Assembly (NCBI GenBank): GCA_025451775.1
Contig: JANWJU010000039.1
Coordinates: 1-36,187, forward strand
Direction of reading: 5' to 3'
Length of the DNA stretch: 36,187 nt
Source: Terriglobales bacterium
Lineage (GTDB): Bacteria; Acidobacteriota; Terriglobia; Terriglobales; SCQP01
Under the pieces are notes generated by a model that was not told the origin of the DNA, searched no databases, and worked only from the letters and a program-made list of their open reading frames with translations. Position 1 is the first letter of the stretch. Each line of letters opens with the position of its first letter. Position numbers and translations under genes: made by a program. Below, in pieces: positions 8,612-24,006 of the stretch.

Positions 8612-8818
8612 ATGGCGGACTCGGGAGACACGCTGGATGTGATCGTCGAGCGCATGCTCGACCAGTTTGAAGCGTCGGATGCAGGATGCACCGAGGAAGA
8701 AAAAATACGGCGGCACCACAGCTTCATGGCTGCTGCCGGACAGATTGCTTCGCGGCACGAAAGTCGTCCAAAAGTTTCTGAAACTCGGCGGAGCCGGACC
8801 GCAGCCCACGCGCGATAA
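8612..8818 (+). CDS. Possible small protein (69 aa)
   Basis: Not recognised. The ORF begins MADSGDTLDVIVERMLDQFE, has an acidic N-terminal half with GC-rich third positions, and changes to a basic, less coding-like tail after about residue 48, where it is antisense to the minus-strand ORF 8724-8897. No convincing ribosome binding site precedes the ATG. The size and the helix-then-basic layout resemble small antitoxin-like or phage-derived proteins, but that is only an impression. Confidence 0.3.
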   Translation: MADSGDTLDVIVERMLDQFEASDAGCTEEEKIRRHHSFMAAAGQIASRHESRPKVSETRRSRTAAHAR

Positions 8819-13009: not shown

Positions 13010-13188
13010 GCGGCTCGCCACTTCTCGCTGGGCCGCTCCCGCGATGCTCGCACTGTGAGCATCGCTCGCTTGAGGGCGGGCTTCGACTGGCCGGCACCGC
13101 TGGGGCTGCGCGGGTCGGCGTGGCGGCGCACGAGCGGCACTGCCGCTCGTTGCCCCGCTCTGCTCGTGGCCATCTTCAGGCTGCCTCC
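13010..13188 (+). repeat. Interspersed repeat family B, copy 1 (long form)
   Basis: About 180 bp running from GCGGCTCGCCACTTCTCGC to CTGCCTCC. It contains two strong inverted repeats: GCGATGCTC/GAGCATCGC (13041-13065, 7-bp loop) and ACGAGCGGCA/TGCCGCTCGT around one C (13130-13150). The same sequence order recurs in copies 2 to 5. It sits between the ars promoter and arsC. Confidence 0.85.
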
Positions 13189-13215
13189 ACTCGCAGGAGC
13201 AAAGGAATAAGGATC

Positions 13216-13713: not shown

Positions 13714-13924
13714 GTGGCTCGCCACTTCTCGCTGGGTCGCTCCCGCGATCCTCGCACTGTGAGCATCGCTCGCTTGAGGGCGGGCTTCGACTGGCCGACA
13801 CCGCTGGGGATGCGCGGGTCGGCGTGGCCGACACCGCTGGGGATGCGCGGGTCGGCGTGGCGGCGCACGAGCGGCACTGCCGCTCGTTGCCCCGCTCTGC
13901 TCGTGGCATCTCCAAGCTGCCTCC
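13714..13924 (+). repeat. Interspersed repeat family B, copy 2 (longest form)
   Basis: It begins GTGGCTCGCCACTTCTCGC 7 bp after the arsC stop and ends CTGCCTCC. The same modules as copy 1 are present, including the ACGAGCGGCA/TGCCGCTCGT palindrome (13867-13887). It differs by an internal 33-bp unit that is exactly duplicated (13794-13826 and 13827-13859). It lies between the convergent arsC and sortase genes. Confidence 0.85.
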
Positions 13925-13995
13925 AAAGGAGCGCGCGCATCTCCGCTCCCGTACGGGCCCGGCTCCGGAACACGCCCAAGAGCGTCGCGAAGCTC

Positions 13996-15763: not shown

Positions 15764-15871
15764 ATAGCCTGACAGATCATTCGCGGTCGAATCGAGCGGT
15801 TTCGCTAGCTGAATGGAGATTCCGATGCGATATTTCGGGCTAGCCTGTTATGGGCGGCCGCGAGGCTCTCG

Positions 15872-16954
15872 ATGCGCACGAACACCTTGAACACCTTGGC
15901 GCCGCGGCTCGTCACTTTTCGCTGGGTCGCTCCCGCTGGTCGCTTGAGGGCGGGCTTCGATTGGCGGCCGGGGATGCCCGCTCTGCTCGTGGCATCTCCA
16001 AGCTGCCTCCAGAGCCGGGGTCGCCGCTTGCGGCGCTTTTGCCGGTTGCTGGGCTTTCTGGCTCTGTGCGCCCTGGCCGCAGAGGCGCAGGCCGCCCCGC
16101 CACGCAAGAACGCACCCCCTCCCTTCAATCTGTCGGTGACGTCGGCCCTGGTCGTTTTGCCGGTAACGGTCACCGCCAACGGGCACTTCGTCTCCGGGCT
16201 CCGCGCGAGGGATTTCCAGGTCTATGAGGACGGGCAGCCGCAAACAGTGACGGTCTTCGACACGGGGGACGCGCCGGTTACTGTCGGATTGATCGTGGAC
16301 CACAGTGGCAGCATGGCGGATAAGCTCCCGGAAGTGGCCGCGGCCAGCCGCGCGTTCGCGCAATCCAGCAATCCACGGGACGAAATGTTCGTCGTGGATT
16401 TCAATGAGCGTGCCGCCGTCGAATCGATCGGCGGATCGGCGTTTTCAAACGATCCGCAGAAACTGGAGGGAGCGCTCACCGCCGTTTCGGCGGGCGGGGA
16501 AACGGCGCTCTATGACGCCGTGGCCGTGGGGCTCCGTTATCTGCGGTTCGGCGGTTGGCAACGGAAGGCGCTGATCGTGGTCAGCGACGGCGGGGACAAT
16601 GCGAGCCGGCTCCGTTTCTCGCAGGTGTTGGCGCTGGCGCAACAATCGCAAGCCGCGATTTACGCGATCGGCTTAGAGAGCACCGCCGATGACGAAGGCA
16701 ACCCAGGGCTCCTCAAACAGCTCTGCAAGGCGACCGGGGGCATGGCCTACTTTCCTGAGGCCGGGAACTCCGTGATGGAAGCCTCTGCAGCCATCGCCCG
16801 CGACCTCCGCGCCCAGTATACGCTTGGGTACGTGCCGCACGCGCGAAGTGACAAGAAAACCTTCCGCAAGGTTGTGGTGAAAGTCGCCGCAAGTGGGCGA
16901 GGCAAACTGACGGCGCGTACTCCGCCCGGCTACTCCACCGGTCCGGATTATTGA
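15872..16954 (+). CDS. Exported VWA-domain protein (acidobacterial VWFA-related type)
   Basis: 360-aa product with the layout of the VWFA-related acidobacterial family: a signal peptide, a short beta domain ending in DFQVYEDGQPQTVTVFD, then a von Willebrand A domain with the MIDAS motif DHSGS (143-147) and VSDGGDNAS. It ends with YTLGYVP...KVVVKV typical of the family. The start is uncertain. From the ATG at 15872, with GAGG 6 bp upstream, residues 12-46 are encoded by repeat B3, and the real hydrophobic signal (LRRFCRLLGFLALCALAAEA) begins only near residue 53. Alternatives are the ATG at 15974 inside the repeat, or a TTG near 16028. A repeat inserted at the 5' end may have replaced the native start. 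The stop is 14 bp before repeat B4. Confidence 0.85.
   Translation: MRTNTLNTLAPRLVTFRWVAPAGRLRAGFDWRPGMPALLVASPSCLQSRGRRLRRFCRLLGFLALCALAAEAQAAPPRKNAPPPFNLSVTSALVVLPVTVTANGHFVSGLRARDFQVYEDGQPQTVTVFDTGDAPVTVGLIVDHSGSMADKLPEVAAASRAFAQSSNPRDEMFVVDFNERAAVESIGGSAFSNDPQKLEGALTAVSAGGETALYDAVAVGLRYLRFGGWQRKALIVVSDGGDNASRLRFSQVLALAQQSQAAIYAIGLESTADDEGNPGLLKQLCKATGGMAYFPEAGNSVMEASAAIARDLRAQYTLGYVPHARSDKKTFRKVVVKVAASGRGKLTARTPPGYSTGPDY
15904..16010 (+). repeat. Interspersed repeat family B, copy 3 (short form, inside VWA 5' end)
   Basis: GCGGCTCGTCACTTTTCGC through GGGCGGGCTTCGA, GGGGATGCCCGCTCTGCTC and CATCTCCAAGCTGCCTCC. The two inverted-repeat modules of the long form are absent. The copy is read in frame by the longest VWA ORF without introducing a stop. 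Confidence 0.85.
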
Positions 16955-16968
16955 GCCTGGCGGCGCAA

Positions 16969-17074
16969 GTGGCTCGTCACTCTTCGCTGGTTCGCGCCCG
17001 TTGGCTGCTTGCCGGGGGGCTTCGATCGGCGGCATCGGGCGCCCGCTCTGCTCGTGGCGCTTCCAAGCGGTTGC
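16969..17074 (+). repeat. Interspersed repeat family B, copy 4 (short, diverged)
   Basis: GTGGCTCGTCACTCTTCGC through GGGGGGCTTCGATC, GCCCGCTCTGCTCGTGGC and a changed 3' end (TTCCAAGCGGTTGC). It is the most diverged copy. It lies 14 bp after the VWA stop, between the convergent VWA and MFS genes. Confidence 0.75.
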
Positions 17075-23852: not shown

Positions 23853-23959
23853 GTGGCTCGCCACTTTTCGCTGGGTCGCTCCCGCTGGTCGCTTGGGGGA
23901 GGGCTTCGATTAACGGCAGGGGATGCCCGCTCGGCTCGTGGCATCTCCAAGCTGCCTCC
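23853..23959 (+). repeat. Interspersed repeat family B, copy 5 (short form)
   Basis: It starts GTGGCTCGCCACTTTTCGC at the base after the ispA stop and ends CATCTCCAAGCTGCCTCC. It closely matches copy 3 and lacks the long-form inverted repeats. It is followed at once by a 16-bp stretch (23960-23975) identical to the left flank of repeat A1. It occupies most of the ispA-FmdB gap. Confidence 0.85.
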
Positions 23960-24006
23960 ATGGGCGCGGGCCCCAACACCCATGCTCGCTGGGGTAAACT
24001 AGCTCC

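Follow-up and report, generated by a model that had tools for sequence, protein, structure and literature searches.

The window analysed here, 36,187 nt of contig JANWJU010000039.1 from a Terriglobales genome, contains a gene for a putatively exported VWA protein whose frame runs through a dispersed repeat before reaching the signal sequence. This arrangement raises the question of where translation begins and whether the repeat has become part of the protein's leader. Our answer, which we hold to be probable, is that the repeat landed in frame downstream of a native start, ATG15872, that was retained.

Reading frame and leader of the VWA gene

The VWA gene is a single open frame on the plus strand (ATG15872 to 16954, 360 aa), which is already open from 15809, past the last upstream stop. 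Translation confirms the original prediction that this frame begins 5' of the repeat, crosses it and only then enters the hydrophobic signal: unique sequence in frame with the VWA body (15872 to 15903) leads up to the repeat edge, followed by the repeat, read as RLVTFRWVAPAGRLRAGFDWRPGMPALLVASPSCLQ, by SRGRRLRRFCR and by the hydrophobic core LLGFLALCALAAEAQA, which begins at about codon 59, near 16046 (Table 1). The repeat was rightly said to contribute codons, but the edges at 15904 and 16011 give 36 of them rather than 35. Cleavage of the signal peptide is predicted, from the residues present, between AQA and A. Downstream, coding signal is present over the VWA body, the protein is a clear member of TIGR03436 (171.1 bits against a cut-off of 81.25, E 4e-50, residues 87-354), Pfam VWA_2 and VWA also match, and the relatives found at 52-59% identity belong to Acidobacteriota genomes.

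That relatives begin directly with the signal peptide proved roughly right. Among 34 relatives whose start has Shine-Dalgarno support, the median n-region is 18 aa and 27 fall at 7-22 aa; the other seven have longer apparent n-regions of 36-50 aa, possibly start mis-calls, and two relatives (G006 and G011) have short ones of 12 aa. Many of these starts carry strong AAGGAG or GGAGG motifs, and in most close relatives a strong Shine-Dalgarno stands ahead of the start. Counted from ATG15872, the n-region of the VWA protein would measure 58 aa with the repeat and 22 aa on its excision, when it reads MRTNTLNTLAPSRGRRLRRFCR directly ahead of LLGFLALCALAAEAQA (LLGF...); because of the repeat, the leader would be about 36 residues longer than those of relatives. 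The repeat is absent from all 71 related loci, and the relatives examined, without repeat and without extension, gave no instance of the extension being conserved where the repeat is missing. A same-genus orthologue was sought among the congeners and not found, which leaves no close empty site. In three of the VWA relatives (L061, L064, L068), an inverted sequence, GCGCCGCGGG / CCCGCGGCGCAAGGAG, overlaps the Shine-Dalgarno 5' of the start and is possibly a translational control hairpin.

Table 1. Positions of the VWA gene parts, of further repeat copies in the window and of other genes carrying the repeat in frame
Feature	Position	Strand	Basis or remark
Shine-Dalgarno-like GAGG (15862-15865), 6-nt spacer to ATG15872	15860..15871	+	start scan
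VWA protein: N-terminal codons proposed as native, MRTNTLNTLA(P)	15872..15903	+	
Dispersed repeat element, 108 nt = 36 codons, reads RLVTFRWVAPAGRLRAGFDWRPGMPALLVASPSCLQ	15904..16011	+	alignment, genome and congener copies
Arginine-rich n-region RGRRLRRFCR adjoining the hydrophobic core; contains in-frame TTG16028	16012..16045	+	translation, start scan
Signal peptide: hydrophobic core and likely cleavage region, LLGFLALCALAAEAQA then A	16046..16096	+	sequence, hydrophobicity
VWA-domain body, TIGR03436 (acidobact_VWFA)	16130..16954	+	NCBIfam, Pfam
Second, more diverged repeat copy	16969..17068	+	82% identity over 100 nt; 14 nt past VWA stop
Third full repeat copy	23853..23960	+	95% identity over 108 nt; abuts stop of gene ending 23852
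Longer repeat variant, extra hairpin-forming inserts	13012..13189	+	partial matches, alignment
Longer repeat variant, extra hairpin-forming inserts and internal duplication	13716..13928	+	partial matches, alignment
Maltokinase with in-frame repeat	L222:7643-9121, element 8648-8755		
Oligopeptidase B with in-frame repeat	L228:12206-14374	-	
FkbM methyltransferase with in-frame repeat	L332:15061-15975	-	congener G004
ArsR-type regulator with in-frame repeat	L322:14058-14813	+	congener G004
Pyridoxal-dependent decarboxylase, in-frame repeat near N-terminus	L157:1393-3075	+	

The repeat family and its landing sites

When about 40 copies are aligned together with flanking sequence, the repeat shows sharp edges around a 108-nt core, the consensus of which runs from GTGGCTCGCCAC... 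to ...AAGCTGCCTCCA. Within the genome of the window (G000; 2.86 Mb, 161 contigs, 82% complete), the repeat matches 40 further places at 88-99% identity, taken from 231 first-look candidates, and about 108 merged places, 46 of them near full length, were found in a 1.46 Mb sample that was drawn by stretches and weighted to contigs with known copies, so that fractions based on it are approximate. This copy number is far above chance. Sister families, diverged from the window repeat, occur in four congeners, with 94% identity and 108 nt in G002, 83% and 111 nt in G004, and 75% and 114 nt or nearly so in G001 and G003; beyond the genus, the repeat gives short weak matches only, within the taxonomic family. 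Unit lengths of 108, 111 and 114 nt, all multiples of three, would arise in three lineages with a chance of about 1 in 27 if independent, and these three subfamilies are suggestive of a length held to multiples of three. The consensus frames are open in five, six and five of six cases; dinucleotide shuffles equal that in 17-67% of cases, and open element frames were rejected as a sign of selection, GC-rich composition yielding the same.

The consensus folds into a short 5' hairpin (GTGGC..GCCAC) and a second hairpin at the 3' side, where paired changes on both arms preserve five base pairs. This fold is modest, and a strong structured-RNA reading was dropped because on neither strand do single copies fold more stably than shuffles; an Rfam search of the window matched a tRNA alone. 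The ends of the unit, GTGGCTCG... and ...GCTGCCTCCA, are complementary over at most about three bases and form no terminal inverted repeats. The two longer variants in the window carry hairpin inserts (GATGCTC...GAGCATC; GAGCGGCACTGCCGCTC), and long and short variants together suggest a modular repeat with two forms. Two copies that run in the same direction (15904-16011 and 16969-17068) bracket the VWA gene itself.

Genes in the sampled DNA were called with a home-made codon-model caller (1226 genes, 89% of the sample), the start calls of which are rough. Against these calls, 33 of the 46 near-full copies are intergenic, often lying no more than 30 nt from the end of a gene, in a sample of which about 11% is intergenic; the remaining 13 overlap called genes, and about ten are read through in frame. 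The repeat often starts at a stop codon or 1-2 bases from it (TGA or TAA followed by GTGG), as at 23853 in the window and at several other loci (L019, L021, L023, L025 and L028), a pattern that hints at preferred landing close to the ends of genes.

Host genes identified by Pfam include a member of the prolyl oligopeptidase family (oligopeptidase B-like), an S13 D-Ala-D-Ala carboxypeptidase, a maltokinase, a biotin carboxylase, an acyl-CoA dehydrogenase, an N-acetylmuramoyl-L-alanine amidase and a HisF/HisH-type protein, in which the element forms the C-terminus. Judged from aligned protein sequences, the maltokinase is the cleanest in-frame case: its repeat falls between HGDYHLGQVLKT and DFFIFDFEGEP, flanked by the conserved motifs HGDYHLGQVL and DFEGEP, and relatives from four other genomes can be aligned up to either edge of the element, with zero or one codon in between. 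In the multiple alignment, the repeat faces a 36-column gap in four relatives and a 35-column gap in a fifth. The insertion in oligopeptidase B is absent from three congeners, and in the S13 enzyme the element comes after the signal peptide, where the sequence varies too much for exact alignment. The cases at L228, L332, L322 and L157 span three species of the genus, and the 111-nt family of G004 is also found in frame in a BNR-repeat protein (two copies) and in an HlyD-type protein, just before a hydrophobic segment. Because the same behaviour is seen in the window's own genome and in G004, landing in frame characterises the family as a whole and is not special to the VWA gene; this finding across genes is firmer than the VWA case itself.

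The start codon of the VWA gene

One major question is which in-frame codon initiates translation. A scan of all in-frame starts from 15809 to the hydrophobic core, in which a Shine-Dalgarno match required at least four bases, found ATG15872 to be the sole start with such a match (GAGG, spacing 6). ATG15974 and TTG16028, both put forward by the original prediction, exist and lie in frame, but neither they nor the remaining in-frame starts down to the core have a match. Two other upstream ATGs were rejected as native starts: ATG15825, with GGAG nearby, is out of the VWA frame and its frame stops at 15888, before the repeat, and ATG15850 is likewise out of frame.

We infer from this arrangement, together with the sharp repeat edges, the 22-aa n-region that excision would leave, the want of the repeat at the 71 related loci and the in-frame landings in other genes, that the landing probably took place behind a retained start. 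A non-autonomous, partly palindromic, genus-specific repeat of 108 nt would have inserted behind codon 11, ahead of the arginine-rich stretch of the signal peptide, with ATG15872 kept as the codon at which initiation would occur; translation would then cross 36 repeat codons, and the n-region would have grown from about 22 to about 58 residues ahead of the same hydrophobic core. With a repeat length divisible by three and no stop inside the repeat in the VWA frame, the VWA body is unchanged. Since the insertion precedes the hydrophobic core, the mature protein would be unchanged as well if the protein is exported and cleaved after AQA, the extra residues leaving with the signal peptide. The insertion site would accordingly seem tolerant and the landing near-neutral. 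That the repeat supplies N-terminal codons, as had been proposed, is most likely correct; that it landed on the native start is disfavoured, ATG15872 and its GAGG speaking for a start that was retained.

Several observations weigh against a retained ATG15872, and most of them bear on an alternative that we regard as unlikely though of some weight, namely that an intergenic repeat copy lies directly 5' of a gene starting at TTG16028 (MRRFCRLLGFLALCALAAEAQA), so that the repeat is 5' untranslated. With about two thirds of copies intergenic, many of them at most 30 nt from a gene end, an intergenic copy just before the start is the prior expectation. Initiation at TTG16028 would give a textbook short signal peptide, and the 12-aa n-regions of G006 and G011 would put the start near 16013-16028. 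The GAGG match is four bases only, a length met at about 13% of random sites and weak alone, and 58% of called starts in the own genome have no Shine-Dalgarno match under the rough start calls. Coding statistics are near zero in all frames over 15872-16045 and thus silent on the reading frame there, the gene caller placed the start at 16046, and the seven relatives with apparent n-regions of 36-50 aa, if not mis-called, are a further point against ATG15872, as is the lack of a congener orthologue that would offer a close empty site. However, TTG16028 shares the want of a Shine-Dalgarno match with ATG15974 and the other downstream in-frame starts, in a group where most close relatives have strong ones ahead of the start, and the presence of a Shine-Dalgarno-preceded in-frame ATG just 5' of the repeat would have to be a coincidence of about 2-9%: random intergenic points have an in-frame matched ATG, with no stop between, within 11 codons upstream in 1.6% of cases, a figure that rises to 2.8% within 20 codons and to 9% when GTG and TTG are admitted.

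It is quite improbable that the repeat destroyed both the native Shine-Dalgarno and the start, with translation now beginning inside the repeat at ATG15974 (MPALLVASPSCLQSRGRRLRRFCR...). This codon is in frame, its 24-aa n-region falls within the range of relatives, and the starts of G006-type relatives would map near the right edge of the repeat; yet it is without a Shine-Dalgarno match, and the ATG is merely part of GGGGATGCCC in the repeat consensus, with no functional reason for its presence. Hardly credible is a decaying or improperly translated gene whose start the repeat cut off, for while none of the congeners supplies an orthologue from which purifying selection could be gauged, the 360-codon frame is intact, TIGR03436 matches over its length (171 bits against a cut-off of 81) and the VWA body keeps its coding signal.

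Significance and known in-frame repeats

Rickettsia supplies the best-known small repeats read in frame inside conserved proteins, others occur in Wolbachia, enterobacteria and Neisseria, and the window family is a new example of this already known class. A literature search for in-frame repeats in Acidobacteria found no report, which is not proof of absence. A high-copy family in an Acidobacteriota genus of free-living type would untie the phenomenon from reduced intracellular genomes, and natural empty and filled sites would let the tolerance of 36-residue insertions be tested, in signal peptides especially. More tentatively, it is possible that coding-compatible mobile repeats, their length held at multiples of three, are spreading genus-wide in these Acidobacteriota through protein genes and leaders, adding 36-38 residues each time.

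REP/BIME elements with RAYT transposases are short, mostly extragenic, hairpin-forming and of high copy number, and GTGG is a recorded variant of their GTAG tag (PMC3733652). The window repeat starts with GTGG and shares high copy number, a mostly extragenic position and hairpin formation; its unit, however, is 108 nt, against a REP palindrome of 20-40 bp with a terminal GTAG or CGTC tag. The two most copy-rich genomes, G000 (82% complete) and G004 (98% complete), have no match to Y1_Tnp (PF01797), and single matches occur in G002 and G003.

The enterobacterial RU-1/ERIC and RU-2/YPAL elements and the 107-bp Correia form are small and non-autonomous, with open frames fused in frame to genes (Delihas 2007, PMC2759123, PMC2229807), and in YPO1552 RU-2 has been reported to make up part of a predicted signal peptide (PMC2229807, PMC2759123). 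The window repeat resembles them in being a small non-autonomous element read in frame, but they belong with the MITE-like elements, having terminal inverted repeats and, in many cases, TA target duplications. Neither could be made out for the window repeat; at the protein level, the maltokinase exceeds the empty sites of its relatives by 36 codons net, which the element accounts for by itself.

The Rickettsia palindromic elements (RPE; Ogata et al. 2000) are palindromic units of 105-146 bp in many copies, without a transposase of their own, found between genes and also in frame within conserved protein genes, the reading frames of which remain open (PMC2229807, PMC10969869). The window family, at 108, 111 or 114 nt with a palindromic stem-loop, is likewise of many copies and has no transposase of its own; it too lies between genes and in frame within conserved ones, among them the maltokinase, oligopeptidase B and about eight more, with further cases in G004. 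It differs in lacking the 12-bp terminal inverted repeat of RPE, in belonging to another phylum, in being mostly intergenic and in having a length that changes between three sister lineages (108, 111 and 114 nt). Likened by behaviour and not by sequence, the window repeats would work as RPE do while forming a separate family.
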